A stretch of DNA of 64,000 bases from Streptococcus suis (GTDB taxonomy: Bacteria; Bacillota; Bacilli; Lactobacillales; Streptococcaceae): contig NZ_POJD01000142.1 in assembly GCF_002960445.1 (NCBI RefSeq), forward strand, positions 124,001 to 188,000, given 5' to 3'. The notes below the pieces were generated by a model. The model made no database searches and was not told the origin of the DNA. It saw nothing but the letters and a program-made list of their open reading frames with translations. How positions within the stretch are numbered: the first letter of the stretch is position 1; each line of letters opens with the position of its first letter. Made by a program: the position numbers and the translations under genes. Of the stretch, positions 3,506 through 62,704 are shown one piece after another.

Positions 3506-4429
3506 ATGACAATTACAAATGGTAAAGTTTCACTCAAACACTTGGTTACTATGGAAACTCTTTCAAATGAGGAAGTGCTCGGGCTTATTCAGAGAGGAAT
3601 TGCTTTCAAAAATGGGGAGCGGGTAGAGTTGGATAGGAAGTATTATGCTTCCAACCTATTCTTTGAGGATTCGACTAGGACCCACAAGTCTTTTGAAATG
3701 GCAGAGCTTCGTTTGGATATGGGTATGATTGACTTTGATGCGCGTACCAGTTCGGTCAATAAGGGTGAAACCTTGTATGATACAATTTTGACCATGTCAG
3801 CCTTGGGGGTCGACATCTGTGTCATTCGTCACTCTGAAGTAGATTACTACAAGCAGTTGATTGATAGCCCTACCATTCAGACTTCTATTGTCAATGGTGG
3901 TGACGGTTCTGGGCAACACCCAAGCCAATCCTTGCTTGACTTGATGACTATATATGAAGAATTTGGAACCTTTGAGGGCTTGAAGATTGCCATTGCTGGT
4001 GATATTACACACTCACGGGTTGCCAAGTCCAATATGCAAATTTTGAAGCGTTTGGGCGCTGAAATTTACTTTGCTGGACCAGAAGAGTGGTATGCAGAGG
4101 AATTTGATGTTTATGGTCAACATTTGAATATTGATGATATTGTTGAGAAAGTAGATGTCTTGATGTTGCTTCGTGTGCAACACGAGCGCCATGATGGTGA
4201 TGGTGGTTTTTCGAAAGAAACCTACAATCGCCTTCATGGTTTGACAGAGGAACGTTACAAACGTTTGAAAGATAGGGCTATTGTCATGCACCCAGCCCCT
4301 GTCAATCGTGATGTAGAAATTGATGACCATTTAGTAGAGGCACCAAAATCACGCATCGTCCGACAAATGCAGAATGGTGTATTTGTCCGGATGGCGATTT
4401 TGGAAGCCATTGTTAATGGTAAGGCTTAA
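3506..4429 (+). CDS. pyrB: Aspartate carbamoyltransferase catalytic subunit
   Basis: 307 residues. It condenses carbamoyl phosphate and aspartate in the second step of pyrimidine synthesis. The carbamoyl-phosphate motif [13 protein letters not shown] is near residue 52, with HPSQSLLDL and [11 protein letters not shown] further on. No regulatory subunit gene is adjacent, as expected for Gram-positives, where control is at PyrR. The ATG is preceded by AAAGGCAGGTATCGTC, an adequate ribosome site. A 489-nt repeat-filled gap separates it from carA, an unusually long interval inside an operon. Confidence 0.97.
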
Positions 4430-4439
4430 GAATTTATTA

Positions 4440-4773
4440 GACTTATCTTACTTAATGTCGCCAATAGAGGCGACGAATAGAAAGGCAAGGGACTGGTCAA
4501 TGGTTGCAAGCAACTCATTTCCCTACGCCTGCCTCTATGGAGGTCAGGCTATTCCTTGCACTAGCTCGAAAATGGATTATTATCGAATCCATTTTCTCAC
4601 GTCGGTCAGAGCAAGTCGGACTACATGCAAGGCATGTGTCCTTCTACGCAAAGTCCTATGGGACCTTTGCTACCTCTGACACTAGCCGTAAGGTTTACCT
4701 AATATCGAGCTAAACCTTACGGCGTCGGACTTATCTTATTTAATGTCGCTCAGAGAGGCGACGAATAGAAAGG
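4440..4773 (+). repeat. Structured composite intergenic repeat, copy 1 (pyrB-carA gap)
   Basis: Two 46-bp direct repeats (4440-4485 and 4728-4773; each GACTTATCTTA, then a small hairpin, then GACGAATAGAAAGG) bracket a 242-bp core. The core is dense with self-complementary segments: GTTGCAAGCAAC; GCCTGCCTC with GAGGTCAGGC; AAAATGGATT with AATCCATTTT; GTCAGAG with CTCTGAC enclosing GCAAAGTCC/GGACCTTTGC; CGTAAGGTTTA with TAAACCTTACG. The same unit recurs at 6044-6370 at about 95% identity by eye. No plausible protein is encoded; short open frames crossing it have no family features. It resembles a small non-autonomous repeat, analogous to pneumococcal BOX/RUP, though I cannot match it to a named family. 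Confidence 0.85.
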
Positions 4774-4812
4774 AGAAGGGGTGTTCTGTTGCTCGGATTT
4801 GTAACTGAATTC

Positions 4813-6043: not shown

Positions 6044-6370
6044 TTATTTAATGTCAACCTGTGAGTTGACGAATAGAAAGGCAAGGGACAGGTCAATGGT
6101 TGCAAGCAACTCATTTCCCTACGCCTGCCTCTATGGAGGTCAGGCTATCCCTTGCACTAGCTAGAAAATGGATTAATGTCGAATCCATTTTCTCACGTCG
6201 GTCAGAGCAAGTCGGACTTCATGCTAACGCATGTGTCCTTCTACGCAAAGTCCTATGGGACCTTTGCTAACTCTGACACTAGCCGTAAGGTTTACCTAAT
6301 ATCGAGCTAAACCTTACTGCGTCGGACTTATCTTATTTAATGTCGCTCAGAGAGGCGACGAATAGAAAGG
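6044..6370 (+). repeat. Structured composite intergenic repeat, copy 2 (carA-carB gap)
   Basis: Second copy of the element seen at 4440-4773. Its first bracket is shorter and its small hairpin has changed from GTCGC/GCGAC to GTCAA/TTGAC (6053-6057 with 6066-6070), a base-pair-preserving change. The second bracket (6325-6370) matches copy 1 almost exactly. The core 6082-6324 keeps all major inverted repeats; differences fall largely in loops, for example TTATTATCG versus TTAATGTCG between the AAAATGGA/TCCATTTT arms. No coding potential is credible. Confidence 0.85.
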
Positions 6371-14906: not shown

Positions 14907-15574
14907 TGATTTTAAGAACTTTGTTATTCCCTGTTGATAATGGTATGGGAACTGGATTGAGTGGAGATGGATACTCCGCTGAATATGATTTGTGGACTGG
15001 TAAAGTTAGATGGCGGAAAGCTGCTGAAGGCTCAATTAGTAAACAACAAGAGCTGACATTCAGACTATTGGTACTATCTTCTATACTTTCTCCAATACTG
15101 GTGGCAGGTTTGCTATTATTTAGCAGAAATCTATTTCAGGGGACAAAAATTTTATACATAGATGTAGATAAGTACGCACCAATAATTTTAGGTATTGTTT
15201 TATTTTTAGCATTTGAAACTTTGATGCTTGCTATAAGAAGACGCGATCCTATTGTTCAAGTAGAACCAAGTTTAAGAAATCAACATGAGTACTTTGAAAA
15301 AATGTTTGACTTTTCAATAAAGAAAAATATTTCAGGAAGAAAAATCCCTCCCTATGTAAGCACATATTTAGCTTCTTTTAGTGCCTTACTATGTATCCCT
15401 CTATCTTACTATGTTTACCTAAATCCTGAGAATTTTTCAGACACAAATTATGGTTCCATTGTGACACTTTTAGTGACGAGTGTTTTTGTTTCGTTGCTGC
15501 CTAACGTTCTATGGAATCTTATTATTAAGCATATTATTTATTTAAAACTTATTCGTAAAACAAACGGAAAATAA
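14900..15574 (+). CDS. Membrane protein of the immunity island
   Basis: 224 residues. A soluble N-terminal stretch (PVDNGMGTGLSGDGYSAEYD, LWTGKVRWRKAAEGS) precedes four transmembrane segments arranged in two pairs (about 45-70, 85-105, 150-170, 185-210). The N-terminus resembles in style that of the 12749 gene, a short description-like loop before a transmembrane bundle. ATG 14900 is preferred because GGAG lies 6 nt upstream; ATG 14888 and ATG 14906 are in-frame alternatives. It ends where a relic of the DUF6572 gene begins, so it is the last gene of the island. Confidence 0.55.
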   Translation: MVMILRTLLFPVDNGMGTGLSGDGYSAEYDLWTGKVRWRKAAEGSISKQQELTFRLLVLSSILSPILVAGLLLFSRNLFQGTKILYIDVDKYAPIILGIVLFLAFETLMLAIRRRDPIVQVEPSLRNQHEYFEKMFDFSIKKNISGRKIPPYVSTYLASFSALLCIPLSYYVYLNPENFSDTNYGSIVTLLVTSVFVSLLPNVLWNLIIKHIIYLKLIRKTNGK

Positions 15575-53884: not shown

Positions 53885-53905
53885 TTATCTCCTCTTTCAT
53901 ATCTC

Positions 53906-54079
53906 TTATCTAAACAAAAATCCATATACAGCATGGATGCTATTGACTAAATTGGTAAAAGCGTTCAATAGAAACAAAATCGCTAAACCAAATCTTTTCT
54001 TTTTAAAGGCTTGAATTGCACAAAGAACACAGATTCCACATAGAAATGCTGTAAACAAACCGAATAAACTTCTCTCCAT
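53906..54079 (-). CDS. Small membrane protein between folA and clpX
   Basis: 57 residues from ATG 54079: MERSLFGLFTAFLCGICVLC, a KKKRF turn, then LAILFLLNAFTNLVNSIHAV and a short end. Two hydrophobic helices joined by a basic turn. It starts 2 nt after the folA stop (54082) and ends 21 nt before clpX, so it belongs to the folA-clpX-engB-ndk transcript. A small gene in this position is common in streptococci. Function unknown. Confidence 0.65.
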   Translation of the reverse strand: MERSLFGLFTAFLCGICVLCAIQAFKKKRFGLAILFLLNAFTNLVNSIHAVYGFLFR

Positions 54080-54081
54080 GC

Positions 54082-54594
54082 CTAACCATCTCTTCTTTCA
54101 TAGGTTTTTATTGTAAAATCATACGGGTTTTTCTCGTCTTTTGGACGTAAATTGGCGCTTTGTAGCTGAAATTTCTCCATAGGAAATGCTTTCGGAAAAT
54201 ACACATCGCCATTAAATTGACCGTGAATATCTGTCACTATTAAAGCTTCAATGTAAGGTGCAAAAGCAGTAAAAATTTGTCCCCCACCAAGCACAAATAG
54301 AGTATGCTCCTGTTTGTGATACCAATCTAGGACATCTTCCACACTGTGTAAAATGGTAACACGTTCACACTCTAGTTGATAGGTTTTATCTGTAGTCAAA
54401 ACGATGGTGTGACGATTGGGAAGAGCACGTTTACCCATGCCGTCGAAGGTTATACGTCCCATCACCATCGTGTGACCTGTTGTCGTTTCTTTGAAATGAG
54501 CAAAGTCAGCTGGCAATGACCAAGGAAGTCTATCACCTTTTCCAATCAATCCATTTTCATCTTGAGCCCAAATGGCAACAATCTTTTTAGTCAT
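54082..54594 (-). CDS. folA: Dihydrofolate reductase
   Basis: 170 residues. WAQDENGLIGKGDRLPWSLP gives the substrate loop with its conserved Trp; catalytic acid in FAHFKETTTGH (Asp/Glu region), NADPH motif GRITFDGMGKRALPNR, VLGGGQIF. It regenerates tetrahydrofolate from the dihydrofolate produced by ThyA, encoded upstream on the same strand. GAAAGTGAGAGAAA precedes the ATG. Confidence 0.95.
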   Translation of the reverse strand: MTKKIVAIWAQDENGLIGKGDRLPWSLPADFAHFKETTTGHTMVMGRITFDGMGKRALPNRHTIVLTTDKTYQLECERVTILHSVEDVLDWYHKQEHTLFVLGGGQIFTAFAPYIEALIVTDIHGQFNGDVYFPKAFPMEKFQLQSANLRPKDEKNPYDFTIKTYERRDG

Positions 54595-54744
54595 TTTCTC
54601 TCACTTTCCGTCCTATCATTCTATCAAAAAAACATGAAAAATGCACTTACCAAGTAGGCCAAGCGCAAATTTTATAACTAGAACCAATTCCTCAATTTTA
54701 TATATTCTTGATAGACGAAACTCTACTTACTACTGTTTATTAAC

Positions 54745-54771
54745 TTAAATCGCTAAATCGAACTTCAATTG
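54745..54771 (-). pseudogene. Relic of a second thyA 3' end
   Basis: The - strand reads QLKFDLAI and TAA, the same last eight residues and stop as ThyA, 122 nt further downstream. The 27 bases differ from the real thyA end at five positions, all synonymous. Confidence 0.8.
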
Positions 54772-54892
54772 CTCCAACACTTTAGGAAAGTGTTGAAGGT
54801 TGGAAAGCGAAACAGTTCGGGGAACTGTTTCAGCCCGAGCTTATAATTAAAGAAGCGAGGTAAAAGAACTAAGTTCTTCACTGCTAATCCAG
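54772..54892. repeat. Hairpin-rich segment between thyA and its relic 3' end
   Basis: Inverted repeats CAACACTTT/AAAGTGTTG (54775-54796), AACAGTTC/GAACTGTT (54811-54829) and AAGAACT/AGTTCTT (54874-54888). No coding potential seen. The remainder of the thyA-folA gap (54595-54744) is AT-rich with no feature I can support. Confidence 0.6.
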
Positions 54893-55732
54893 TTAAATCG
54901 CCAAGTCAAACTTAAGTTGCGGTTTAACTGGATTGTAATCCACCAACTCAAAATCTTCTGCCTTAATATCAAAGAAATTGGTACCATCTGGAACATTGAG
55001 GACCAAACGTGGCTCGATTTCTGAAGGTGTACGACGGAGCAATTCTTCAGCCTGTTCAAACTGATTGTCATAGATATGAAGGTTGTTGATGAAATAGAAA
55101 AACTTCCCAACCTTCCAGCCAAAATGCTTGGCAATCATCATTTGAAGAGCGACATACTGCATGGCGTTGATATGGTGAGCCACTAACATATCATTGGAGC
55201 GCTGAGTGAGGGTTGCATCAAGATAAATCTCTCCGTCCACTCGGCGAACATCAAACATGGTCTGGAAGGCGCATGGCAAAAGACCTGCGGATTGGTCGAA
55301 GGCCTCGTAATCCCACAAAGAAATCACATTGCGACGGTTCCAGGGATTTTCTTCCAATTGCTTGAGGATTTTGGAAATGATGTCATGTTTTTTAACAATT
55401 GCACCATAGCGTTCACCGATGGTCCCTGTTCCATCTACTTCCCAGTCATTCCAATATTGAACGCCGTATTTTTCCTGCAAGACAGACAGGTCATTGGTCT
55501 GGTCTTGGTAAATCCAGAGAATTTCCTTAATAGCTGATTTAATCGGAATTGGTCTTAGTGTGGTAATAGGAAACTCCCCCTTGGCCAAATCATACTCAGC
55601 AAAGGCACCAGTAATATACTTAGAATTAGCAACGTTTCCATCCTTGTAACGTGGACGAGCATTTTCTGAAAAAACGCCCTCTTCCATAATCTTACGAATG
55701 TTCTCTTTAAAAATATTATCTGCTTTAGTCAT
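54893..55732 (-). CDS. thyA: Thymidylate synthase, predicted leaderless transcript
   Basis: 279 residues. The catalytic cysteine is in [13 protein letters not shown], the Arg-rich phosphate motif in [20 protein letters not shown]. It makes dTMP from dUMP using methylene-THF. The start [15 protein letters not shown] at 55732 is right by homology; the longer frame to 55813 overlaps the upstream gene. TATACT (55744-55739, - strand) with an extended TG sits six bases before the ATG, leaving no room for a leader or ribosome site. Confidence 0.95.
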
Positions 55733-55754
55733 GGTTTTAGTATAGCAAATTCTA

Positions 55755-55783
55755 GCAAAAAACTCCAGTTTTGCACCGGAGTT
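55755..55783 (-). terminator. Terminator before thyA
   Basis: On the - strand ACTCCGG/CTGGAGT pair around TGCAAAA, followed by TTTTTTGC. The thyA promoter overlaps its T-run. Confidence 0.8.
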
Positions 55784-55784
55784 C

Positions 55785-56087
55785 TCATTTGAAAAAAATT
55801 GAAAAGAAATCAAGTTGGAATAAACCAGATAGGGCAGTTACTAGACTGAACAGTATAAAATACAAAGCAACTAAGGTGACACTCAACAATATCTGACGAA
55901 CATTTTTCGTATAAATTGCCGTTGGTAAGCTGGCTAGTCCGAAAAATGGAATGATGAAAAATGTCAGCTTAAAATTCACATTTAAAATACCAAACCACTG
56001 GCCTATTGGTAAAAATAGCATAGCAATGAGAAAAGCAGTAATGCTATAGAGGACAATATTTAGCCGTCTTAATAGGGTCATATTCAT
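55785..56087 (-). CDS. Small membrane protein, unknown
   Basis: 100 residues with three hydrophobic helices ([55 protein letters not shown]). It follows the next small membrane protein by 12 nt with AAGGAGTTATTT before the ATG. No family recognised. Together they look like a two-gene operon of unknown role ending at the pre-thyA terminator. Confidence 0.6.
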
Positions 56088-59413: not shown

Positions 59414-62400
59414 CTAGGCCGCAACTGTAGACTGAGTAAGACCGATTGAATCATATTCAACAGTCGGTGTCACAGACAGACTTGCTGGTTTGTAATAGTA
59501 GGTTATAATTGTCTCCCCTTCTTTTACATGTCCAACCTCTACAACATCTACATGGCTAAAGATATAAGGAACTTTTGGTGCTTCCTCTGTGATTTCTTTT
59601 GTATAGGTGTAGGAATAATATCGAGTCTCGTAATAATTTTCCCCCACTTTATCTTGTCTTGTTCCGTTAAATCGTTCTACTTCTGTAGCTGGGTCGAAAC
59701 CACGAGCAATTGCTTGCTCTCTATAATCAATATTTTGATTCATTGCAGGCGCATCAGATTTTGCAACGTATGCAACAAATGTTTTTGTACCTTTAACAAT
59801 TGTGTTATTTACAATTTGCCCTGTAGCACCCGTAGTAGTATCCAAAAATTCAACTGGAGAAGTAAGCATGCCAGCAATTACTTTATCTTTTGCTGCTTTA
59901 TCAAGTGTAGTATTGTACAACAAATAGGTAGGTGTGGTAACAGTCTTAGTGTCCACAATAGAGCCATCTGCTCCCTTGATTGCAGTGGTTTCCACTGTTG
60001 CAACAAGTTGGTTATCTACAACCTTAGTAGATGGAACAATTTCCTCACCCGTCACTTCATTGACATAACGCGTAATCACTGTTCCTCGAATTTCTTTAGT
60101 AGAAGCCTCAAGTTTACGATAGATATAGGTTACATAAGTTGTACCTTCTGTAACTGATTCAACTTCAGCCCCGTCAATTCCTGCTAGAACATAAACTCCA
60201 TCATTTGTTGTGATTCGTTCTTCCTTAACAGTAGCAGCATTGTAAATACCACCAATATTTTCTACTTTTGTATCTCTATCAGTTGGTACACCATCGATAT
60301 AAGTTCTATTGACAGTCGTCCTAGTCACAACTCGATCAGTTACTAACGAAACTTCTGGTTTCAGTGTATTCCCTGCTTCGTCTTGGTAGCGAACAATAAC
60401 TGACCCTTTAGTTTCTGTAACTTCTTCTGTTTCAGTTCGAGTATTGTTTTTAAGTTGATAAACAAATGTTACATCGGTTGTGCCAACCTTCAAAGTACCT
60501 TGGCTTGGAGCAGAATTTTCAGCTAAACCTTTGAATGCATAATTATTGTTGTTAAAGGTAATTGCATCCTGTCTAATACTATCCGCATTATAGGTTACAC
60601 CAGTCGGAGTCGTTGTCGTCTGAATTTCCTCGACCCCATCAGTAGTAATGCTGGTACGAGAAATAATGTTTACAGCACCGCTAAGCAATTCTTTAGATGG
60701 AGCAATTGGTGTACCTTCTTCATCTACAAAGTGCACATTTACTGTACCTGTTTCTTGTACTGGATCAAGAACTTTGCGAATTACTACAGGTTGAGCAACC
60801 TTACGGTAAACATAGCTTACTGTTGTGTCGCCAGCAACAACTTTACCAGTTTCATTTCCTTCAACAGCCACAAACTCATATGTGTCGCCATTGTACTCCA
60901 AGACAGCTGCCTTGACTGCTGCTGCATTATAGGTTGCATCGCTGACTACTTTATTTTCTTTAATTTCTTCGACACCGTCAGTGGTTACCTTAGTACGGAA
61001 GGTTGTAGAAATAACAGCACTTACCAATTCCTTAGAATCTGCAAGTTTATTACCAGCCTCATCGACATAATGAACAGTAACCTTACCGGTTTCTTGGATT
61101 GGATCAAGCTCTTCACGAGTGACAACCGGTTGAGCAACCTTACGGTAAACATAAGTAACTTCTGTCTCACCAGCTACTACTTGGCCAGTTTCATTTCCTT
61201 TAACAGCCACAAACTCATATGTGTCACCATTGTACTCCAAGACAGTTGCCTTAACTGCTGCTGCATTATAGGTTGCATCGCTGACTACTTTATTTTCTTT
61301 AATTTCTTCGACACCGTCGGTGGTTACCTTGGTACGGAAGGTTGTAGAAAGAACTGCATTTACCAATTCCTTAGAATCTGCAAGTTTATTACCAGCCTCA
61401 TCGACATAATGAACAGTAACCTTACCGGTTTCTTGGATTGGATCAAGCTCTTCACGAGTGACAACTGGTTGAGCAACCTTACGGTAAACATAAGTAACTT
61501 CTGTCTCGCCAGCTACTACTTTGCCAGTTTCATTTCCTTTAACAGCTACAAACTCATATGTGTCACCGTTGGATTCAATGGTATTTACTTTCAGGGCAGC
61601 AGCATTATAGTCAAGATCATTTGGTACAGTATTTTCTTTAATTTCCTCTACACCGTTTACAGTCACTTTAGTACGATAAGTAGTAGAAACAACAGCATTT
61701 ACCAATTCTTTAGAAGCAGCTATTGTATTGCCCTCTTCGTCAACATAGTGAACTGTAACCTTGCCCTTATTCTCCTGTGTCTCAGTTGTCAAATCAGCTG
61801 AAGGTAGAGTGTTAGGGCTTGTAGGTGTTTCTGCAGGTACAGATGCGATTTCTGGATAATAGCCAACATATTCCCAACAAGTATCTGTTGCAGGTGTATG
61901 AGTAAAGCGAGCATTTAATTGCAGTTTGACATTTTCAACCAAATCAAGGAAGGTTGATGAATTGGCGAGAACCGGTGTAGAAACTCCGATACTTCCTGCA
62001 ACCAATAGAGCAATAGCTACATGTTTGCCTGTTTTACGGTTCTTAAACAATAAGTAACCACCAAATGTCAACATACCCAACCCTGCAATAGCAATAGTTT
62101 TTGAGCTAGCAGAGCCTGTTTTTGGCAAAATAGACTGTACAGATTTCGCAGGAATACCAGTTATCCTCGATACTGTCTGAGCAACAGTTGAAGGTGTTTC
62201 CGCTTTTGGTGTGACTGTTACTACAGGAGCTACTGGAACTTGTGGTTCAACTTGAGGTGTACCAGGAACAACTGGGATTTGTGGAACTTGTGGCGTGCCA
62301 GGAACTACTGGGATTTGTGGAACTAATGATGGTAGGGTTGGTAGGATTGGTTGTATCGGCTCAGGATCCACTGGAACAACTTGGCAACTACCAGAAGGTT

Positions 62401-62704
62401 TATATACGGCAACAAAACCAGTAATCCACTCAAAATTCCCTGTCTCTGGATTGATCCAAGAAAGCTGTTCATCAATATTACCTGATTTAATTCGTGCCTT
62501 TTGCTCCACTGTTAAATCATTGAAATTTACTCTACTAATCGTGGCATCTACCGTGCGATTCGTTTGCACTACTGCAGAATTAGTAGTCTCATTCGCAGAA
62601 ACCAATGATGAACCTGCAAGGACGCCAACTGTACCTAGTAGTGCCACTCCAAGTCCTTTGACAGCCTTATGTTTTCGAAATCCATACTTATGTTTTTTTT
62701 CCAT
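59414..62704 (-). CDS. MucBP-repeat surface protein with an internal LPXTG sorting signal
   Basis: 1096 residues. A YSIRK-like signal peptide (HKYGFRKHKAVKGLGVALLG, cleavage near Ala37) leads to a short domain, then a proline-rich linker with near-repeat IPVVPGTPQ. LPKTG lies at 193-197 (DNA 62114-62128), followed by a hydrophobic stretch (203-220), KNRKTGK (221-227) and a second hydrophobic stretch (228-244) ending PVLAN, like a new signal peptide. The rest (249-1096) is extracellular: a 60-residue domain and about six MucBP-like repeats opening GKVTVHYVDE. The C-terminus ends TQSTVAA with no anchor. Only two Cys occur, at 107 and 276. Likely adhesin-like. Confidence 0.88.
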   Translation of the reverse strand: MEKKHKYGFRKHKAVKGLGVALLGTVGVLAGSSLVSANETTNSAVVQTNRTVDATISRVNFNDLTVEQKARIKSGNIDEQLSWINPETGNFEWITGFVAVYKPSGSCQVVPVDPEPIQPILPTLPSLVPQIPVVPGTPQVPQIPVVPGTPQVEPQVPVAPVVTVTPKAETPSTVAQTVSRITGIPAKSVQSILPKTGSASSKTIAIAGLGMLTFGGYLLFKNRKTGKHVAIALLVAGSIGVSTPVLANSSTFLDLVENVKLQLNARFTHTPATDTCWEYVGYYPEIASVPAETPTSPNTLPSADLTTETQENKGKVTVHYVDEEGNTIAASKELVNAVVSTTYRTKVTVNGVEEIKENTVPNDLDYNAAALKVNTIESNGDTYEFVAVKGNETGKVVAGETEVTYVYRKVAQPVVTREELDPIQETGKVTVHYVDEAGNKLADSKELVNAVLSTTFRTKVTTDGVEEIKENKVVSDATYNAAAVKATVLEYNGDTYEFVAVKGNETGQVVAGETEVTYVYRKVAQPVVTREELDPIQETGKVTVHYVDEAGNKLADSKELVSAVISTTFRTKVTTDGVEEIKENKVVSDATYNAAAVKAAVLEYNGDTYEFVAVEGNETGKVVAGDTTVSYVYRKVAQPVVIRKVLDPVQETGTVNVHFVDEEGTPIAPSKELLSGAVNIISRTSITTDGVEEIQTTTTPTGVTYNADSIRQDAITFNNNNYAFKGLAENSAPSQGTLKVGTTDVTFVYQLKNNTRTETEEVTETKGSVIVRYQDEAGNTLKPEVSLVTDRVVTRTTVNRTYIDGVPTDRDTKVENIGGIYNAATVKEERITTNDGVYVLAGIDGAEVESVTEGTTYVTYIYRKLEASTKEIRGTVITRYVNEVTGEEIVPSTKVVDNQLVATVETTAIKGADGSIVDTKTVTTPTYLLYNTTLDKAAKDKVIAGMLTSPVEFLDTTTGATGQIVNNTIVKGTKTFVAYVAKSDAPAMNQNIDYREQAIARGFDPATEVERFNGTRQDKVGENYYETRYYSYTYTKEITEEAPKVPYIFSHVDVVEVGHVKEGETIITYYYKPASLSVTPTVEYDSIGLTQSTVAA
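60430..61790 (-). repeat. Tandem 339-bp repeats within the MucBP surface protein gene
   Basis: Equivalent positions recur at 61761, 61422, 61083 and 60744, exactly 339 bp (113 codons) apart. The second and third units are nearly identical in DNA, the first and fourth are diverged, and two further MucBP-like domains downstream are degenerate. Such identity favours unequal recombination and copy-number change. Confidence 0.9.

Follow-up and report, generated by a model that had tools for sequence, protein, structure and literature searches.

Displaced gene ends and hairpin tails behind thyA, sufU and pgk in Streptococcus suis and related streptococci

In a 64,000-nt stretch of Streptococcus suis DNA (contig NZ_POJD01000142.1, positions 124,001 to 188,000; hereafter called the window) the gene thyA is followed by a hairpin-rich insert and then by a second copy of its own 3' end, which is the displaced end of a resident thyA allele. 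By comparing genomes we show that such displaced ends stack and recombine, and that in the lineage of genomes G216 and G277 the foreign unit is, judged from the alignments, short. In our best explanation, for which belief and doubt are about evenly balanced, short homology let DNA bearing BOX-type repeats join resident gene ends, and the composites that arose were then spread by homologous recombination. A reading made earlier from the window sequence alone had recognised the second thyA end; it had missed the dispersed BOX-type modules in the tail, the serial nature of the process and the existence of at least three such genes, thyA included.

The functional thyA copy (279 aa) occupies 54893-55732 on the minus strand, as do all features of this locus, with its stop at 54893. 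Right after the stop codon begins a 121-nt insert, tail1 (54772-54892), which starts with CTGGATTAGCAGT. Next comes the relic (54745-54771), the displaced 3' end of the resident allele, which reads CAA TTG AAG TTC GAT TTA GCG ATT TAA in frame (QLKFDLAI-stop) and whose homology reaches 28 nt upstream of the end of the stop. The relic and the functional thyA end are identical at 22 of 27 positions, and every one of the five differences is synonymous. After the stop, the two copies in the window stay weakly similar for 13 nt (8/13). When the coordinates were recomputed, the sequence-only reading proved accurate in all these points: the peptide and its stop, the frame, the five synonymous differences and the 121-nt gap. 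Beyond the relic lies tail2 (GTTAATAAACAGTAGTAAGTAG..., 54595-54744), which from its match to genomes G150 and G280 is the resident 3' flank of the displaced thyA end. It extends up to the next gene, dfrA (54082-54594), whose product we take to be dihydrofolate reductase.

Within the insert, the section related to dispersed BOX-type repeats (54797-54866) contains a hairpin at 54809-54831, and a final hairpin, an inverted repeat at 54772-54798, adjoins the relic. A further stem (54886-54934) was predicted from an inverted repeat and from folding, and pairs thyA coding sequence (54919-54934) with the stop region and the first 7 nt of the tail (54886-54901). The folding of the 301 nt from 54660 to 54960 was better than that of 100 out of 100 shuffles (z = -3.2). 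Covariation in the tail1 stems was weak, the pairs being mostly invariant among 11 genomes. Rfam gave no match up to E=1 across 53900-55900, and no intrinsic terminator was found by a simple scan of 54560-55000. The thyA protein of the window was 95-99% identical to its 12 nearest records, which were from S. suis (11) and an uncultured Streptococcus (1).

The relic was found as a true gene end in other genomes. G150 and G280 are without the insert, and in both an intact thyA runs straight into a flank of the tail2 type. Tail2 of the window matched this flank without gaps at 147/150 positions in G150 and 146/150 in G280, and the relic matched the intact thyA end at 25/27 positions in each, with a thyA gene identity to the window of 89.8% and 89.5%, respectively. 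Strains of this kind, with the relic as the true thyA end and without the 121 nt, had been named beforehand as the check to be made. The outcome that was to refute the reading, a match found by chance in unrelated contexts or absent from any thyA allele, did not occur. Among random sets of five substitutions, 19 of 200,000 (about 1 in 10,000) preserved the peptide, which makes neutral drift of a dead duplicate a poor explanation. The decisive point is the match of relic and flank to the gene end of G150 and G280; with all five changes synonymous as well, the relic of the window belongs to a different thyA allele, the resident one, whose end was displaced. What both versions of the earlier reading have in common, namely displacement of the thyA 3' end by DNA that brought its own end, is borne out by G150 and G280.

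The comparison covered 27 genomes from this and neighbouring species, selected among 284 of the genus by a match to the region at E <= 1e-20, in a sample with one genome per species. At a threshold of 16/24 nt a thyA relic was found in 11 of the 27, and degenerate relics were recognised by eye in G112 and G136. The tail1 start comes right after thyA in 13 of the 27. Tail2 was found in its empty-site form in G150 and G280, and tail4 (GATGAGGGGG..) in its empty-site form in G016, G120, G014, G110 and G279, while tail3 (GTTGTAGGCTG..) occurred in G252, G173 and G126. In G216, G277 and G022 thyA is followed by tail1, then the relic, then tail4. The order in G252 is thyA, tail3, hairpin, relic and tail1, the tail that elsewhere comes first. 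Since a tail can lead in one genome and take second place in the next, the endings accumulate serially. G112 and G124, the latter of the same listed species as the window, have insert, relic and flank in common with it.

Based on identity along its length, the thyA-dfrA locus of the window is a mosaic. The dfrA stretch at 54082-54600, located +300 to +800 behind thyA, was 92-100% identical to the otherwise diverged G150, G016, G120 and G277, as against 70-87% to G112, which shares the thyA insert of the window; this points to a recombination block at dfrA, the target gene of trimethoprim. Directly behind thyA, pilus-like genes were seen in G117 (L069/L010), where no relic was seen by eye on the dfrA side, and a large surface-protein gene in S. 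suis SSHP-D (L075, 3840-6837). Islands, too, may use the thyA-dfrA junction as a site.

The same anatomy was found at sufU and pgk. A sufU insert in 9 of the 27 genomes starts with AGG...ACTGCGA or ACAGCGA, ends with ..GTTTAGTGT and is followed by a copy of about 40 nt of the sufU end. At pgk, 19 of the 27 genomes have at least one pgk-end relic, set apart by terminator-like and other hairpins, most of which share a similar right end (..CTAGCAAGGT). A hairpin of about 55 nt that precedes many pgk relics was present in 36 of the 284 genus genomes, 15 of them outside the 27. By the same threshold, pgk relics were found in 10 of the 13 further genomes read from the 15 picked by this hairpin, and G208 has four; the pgk anatomy recurs across several species.

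Upstream of the stop, the homology of the copies covered 27-28 nt (7 cases) or 41-42 nt (4) at thyA and 43 nt at sufU (9), of which a few bases may be chance. At pgk it covered 22 nt (13), 39-44 nt (18), and 57 and 72 nt (one each), and by eye an additional hairpin breaks up the relic in several of the 22-nt cases. Downstream, homology stopped at most 2 nt from the stop codon in 40 of 53 relics (9/11 for thyA, 9/9 for sufU, 22/33 for pgk), the window with its 13 nt past the stop, 8 of them matching, being among the exceptions. The relic flank was the genuine flank of a functional gene end elsewhere (at least 17/20) in 7/11 thyA, 5/9 sufU and 22/33 pgk cases, and was without a known native counterpart in 4/11, 4/9 and 11/33. 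The tail of the gene itself resembled the relic flank (>11/20) in one thyA, no sufU and six pgk cases. Single inserts, including the gene end, measured about 90-220 nt.

Several further observations were made behind pgk. Longer relics followed by a different tail were seen in L388 (G026), L392 (G254) and L391 (G073), with 57 and 72 nt in two of them and a degenerate third, implying a further join position in pgk. In L399 (G014) genes that we presume to be IS66-like lie inside an interrupted pgk relic (682-2300), near the start of the 15 kb behind pgk. In the same L399 a piece of the pgk cassette was found at about 15000-15100, some 14 kb away and in inverted orientation.

A scan covered 1,995 gene ends, of which 1,926 came from 2.0 Mb of G014, G124, G075 and G157 and 69 from the window. 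Its eight hits were thyA of the window, pgk of both G124 and G157, and five others that by eye are tandem arrays, repetitive genes or an IS end. Among these sampled ends no gene besides thyA and pgk had the stacked-end anatomy; sufU was found in a separate scan of fetched loci. In stop-anchored scans with ORFs of 60-100 aa and more, the shuffled controls are contaminated by thyA-versus-thyA pairs or repeats. These scans also gave repetitive ORFs and intergenic arrays (e.g. G014 L250; G075 L286, L294 and L298; window 4736), and in view of the controls the conclusions are based on the scan of 1,995 ends and the flank comparisons. The G075 loci L298 (2181-2680), L294 (18410-18760 and 6053-6480) and L286 (6112-6400) contain tandem arrays with units of about 158-232 nt and hairpins, and one G075 array copies the end of a transposase-like ORF.

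The extent of the DNA that moved could be read most clearly in G216 and G277. Their last 420 nt of thyA are identical at 416/420 positions, and the two insertions are probably one event. Compared with the empty G016, the thyA body from -420 to -41 matched at 376/379 positions in G216 and 374/379 in G277, and the relic with 170 nt of flank matched without gaps at 208/211 and 210/211. The last 39 nt of the functional thyA matched at 29/39 positions. By these identities only the last ~39 nt of thyA and the tail are foreign in the G216/G277 lineage, with surroundings that are 98-99% G016-like, and whole-gene replacement is excluded there because the thyA body is resident.

We then set the body against the end in each relic-bearing genome, using its nearest empty genome as reference. 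The functional end was closer than the relic in 7/11 thyA, 6/9 sufU and 10/19 pgk cases, and the relic was closer in 4/11, 0/9 and 4/19, with three ties for sufU and five for pgk. Only G216 and G277 were clear; elsewhere the outcome was mixed or opposite. For sufU of G278 the functional end matched the nearest empty genome at 39/40 and the relic at 36/40 positions, with a body identity of 99.4%. No near-identical empty genome was found for the window among those compared; the nearest is G117, with a body identity of 91.8% and matches of 26/28 for the functional end and 25/28 for the relic. As the functional end mostly goes with the gene body, longer imported tracts fit, and the mixed outcome points to imports that run both ways and differ in length. 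Of the two versions considered from the window alone, allele replacement and integration at the 3' end of the gene, the integration version fits G216/G277, and longer imported tracts fit most other genomes.

With a 163-nt query made of insert and relic, matches at E<=0.001 were obtained in 85 of 197 genomes of the genus. The relatives of the insert core (54797-54866) are dispersed, modular, intergenic and hairpin-forming. They look like the modular BOX-type repeats of S. suis (PMC3049150), to which they are likened by description and not by module sequence. The available text of that paper (Croucher et al. 2011) describes RepSU1 and the boxA/C and boxE/F families as BOX-type repeats of S. suis and notes that BOX is thought to be a MITE. 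The insert is modular, hairpin-rich and dispersed in intergenic space like these repeats, and its core matches dispersed copies; it lacks the CAACCACTGCG.. stretch with which like hairpins continue there. Unlike the BOX-type repeats, which the same text presents as stand-alone elements, the module here belongs to a tail that separates the functional end of a gene from a displaced one, and some inserts of this kind do without it. The core is absent from the thyA insert of G022 and from the sufU inserts of G136, G022 and G278, and is therefore not obligatory. A repeat flanking the insert is present, but its length varies among the cases, and the terminal inverted repeats and short fixed target-site duplication of a MITE were not found. 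The thyA pairing TTTAACTGG../..CCAGTTAAA involves the gene itself, and no common ends were seen at sufU or pgk.

According to our best explanation, the incoming DNA would have brought a thyA end, a stop codon and a BOX-type hairpin tail. The join would have fallen in front of the old end, within the last ~28-41 nt of the resident thyA, whereby the gene would have obtained a new ending and the old one would have stayed behind as a relic. The founding joins would have been of the illegitimate type, made where short homologies occur, and the gene side would have relied on ordinary homology, as in homology-facilitated illegitimate recombination. The composites would then have been spread and reshuffled, with differing tract lengths, by homologous recombination in a transformable species. 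In the text available from two sources, S. suis is described as transformable (PMC7992943) and three competent species are described as joining DNA illegitimately with homology as the anchor (PMC3240628). Gene body and relic would act as two homology arms, the relic giving incoming DNA its right arm, and the hairpin tail would supply a new 3' UTR. With a homologous right arm, transformation could install composites with any tract length, which matches the mixed outcome of the comparison of body and end.

The join points at thyA were inspected by eye. The thyA hairpin unit breaks off at GAGCAA or GAAGCCA, and in 8 of 24 distinct dispersed copies the like hairpin continues into GAGCAATCAACC (2) or AAGCCAATCAACC (6). 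At the two join points thyA reads CCGCAA and GAGCCAGTTAAACC. The 4-5 shared bases, counted by eye, would fit illegitimate recombination anchored by homology on the gene side. Against this explanation, the same few genes recur, whereas random illegitimate joining should scatter, and the join positions cluster at thyA, sufU and pgk. In addition, all nine of the nine sufU inserts carry a relic, a pgk-end stretch, sometimes degenerate, comes after the pgk hairpin in the genomes read, and no donor with a tail but without a relic was identified among the genomes compared. The recurring genes and the constant pairing of insert and relic at sufU would be explained better by a site-specific process.

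Site-specific integration would involve small non-autonomous elements with an attachment site in the last ~40 nt of the gene and a recombinase acting in trans, and we regard it as a possible, albeit doubtful, alternative. The new gene end would be attL and the relic attR, and repeated integration would give rise to arrays, as in tRNA-gene islands and integron cassettes. It agrees with the clean insertion in G216/G277 relative to G016, with breakpoints that cluster near -40 at three unrelated genes, with the recurrence of the same genes (pgk in several species) and with the similar right end ..CTAGCAAGGT on most pgk hairpins. However, it predicts that the relic goes with the body, which was true in just 4/11 thyA, 0/9 sufU and 4/19 pgk cases; the inserts are too short for an integrase, and the pgk hairpin joins two positions in the gene (-39 and -22). 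A phage or satellite origin found no match either, the cassette patterns of thyA, sufU and pgk being unmatched in viral contigs and the thyA and pgk sequences in phage records. The sufU-region query gave one Enterococcus phage record with 70.6% identity over query positions 546-698. In plasmid records, searched with the pgk cassette alone, 11 records were matched, from other genera only, at 60-90% identity and with no more than 46% of the query covered. Viral contigs, phage records and, for the pgk cassette, plasmid records yielded neither a recombinase nor a larger element with these ends, and thyA, sufU and phosphoglycerate kinase had zero occurrences in the main texts of two papers on streptococcal ICE and IME sites. 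A dedicated recombinase is possible. It seems unlikely that streptococci carry mobile non-coding 3'-end cassettes of ~90-220 nt (last ~40 nt with the stop, 3' UTR or terminator, and hairpin) that insert at the 3' ends of thyA, sufU and pgk via a putative dedicated recombination, with the newest one providing the ending of the gene and older endings archived downstream.

We consider it rather improbable that the resident gene was exchanged in a single event for a whole divergent thyA and the 3' flank belonging to it, with the old 3' end left in place. The window speaks for such a replacement in that its thyA is ~90% identical to G150/G280 and the flank 97-98%, and the functional end was nearer to the relatives of the body in 7/11 thyA, 6/9 sufU and 10/19 pgk cases; yet the thyA body is resident in G216 and G277, and a single replacement leaves the stacking and the three genes unexplained. 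The similarity to G112 and G124 separates none of the models, since insert, relic and flank are common to them and the window. If a BOX-type element had transposed and made a long target-site duplication, this would account for the direct repeats that flank the insert and would suit the view of BOX as a MITE in the available text of PMC3049150. We consider it very unlikely, given repeats that vary from 22 to 72 nt and mostly end at the stop codon, and given the lack of the core in the thyA insert of G022 and in the sufU inserts of G136, G022 and G278. Hardly credible at all is a chance match or a tandem duplication of gene end and tail. Taken alone, the DNA score of the relic match was only moderately improbable, since among 200 dinucleotide shuffles of the downstream 900 nt one did equally well; tandem arrays do exist in these genomes, in G208 at pgk, and the window tails share 8/13 nt after the stop. 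For the window both are contradicted by the match of relic and flank to real gene ends in G150/G280, and the tails are otherwise unrelated.

In integron cassette arrays the newest cassette stands beside a fixed gene and older ones follow downstream, with hairpins between them. The arrangement described here resembles them in each of these respects and differs in having no integrase and no coding cassette. For streptococci, the available text of PMC7168690 and PMC4701971 describes ICEs and IMEs that insert at the 3' ends of housekeeping genes. As with these elements, an insertion at a gene 3' end restored the coding sequence and left direct repeats, and relatives have the empty site. Unlike them, the inserts are without integrase, relaxase or cargo gene, single ones measuring about 90-220 nt; no integrase gene was found in the 121-nt insert, and the other inserts are too short for one. 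Homology-facilitated illegitimate recombination and 'dimorphic' small variable segments are treated in the available text of PMC2884548 and PMC3240628, and in that of PMC3784515 the process is named in the reference list alone, alongside a pneumococcal paper of 2002. Our loci would share with this process one homologous side, short or no homology on the other, and small strain-specific segments, but here the same genes are joined at their 3' ends again and again, the joins pile up, and the gene ends left behind can still be recognised. The parts are thus of known kinds as far as the accessible texts go (BOX-type repeats, homology-assisted illegitimate recombination and integration at gene 3' ends), and no description of serial gene endings at defined housekeeping genes was found in the accessible part of the open-licence literature.

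As the relics record past gene endings, each locus would be a small archive of recombination events. If endings and 3' UTRs are swapped in this way, streptococci would change the mRNA ends of essential genes and leave the protein untouched, and this would account for some of the hypervariable hairpin DNA between genes in S. suis. Hitch-hiking on gene ends by homologous recombination is also a possible vehicle for BOX-type repeats, for which no mobilising mechanism is given in the available text of PMC3049150. Selection can be direct at thyA (thymidine prototrophy).

Elsewhere in the window, at about 4420-4800 on the minus strand, an intergenic hairpin array lies between direct repeats of ~47 nt (CCTTTCTATTCGTCGCCTCT..GCGACATTAARTAAGATAAGTC), a non-genic look-alike of the thyA arrangement, and a related pair of repeats was found at 6044 and 6333. 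At 59414-62704, also on the minus strand, a surface-protein ORF of 1096 aa has an LPKTG-type motif in its first fifth, followed by an apparent second signal segment and repeats, and is perhaps a fusion of two wall proteins.
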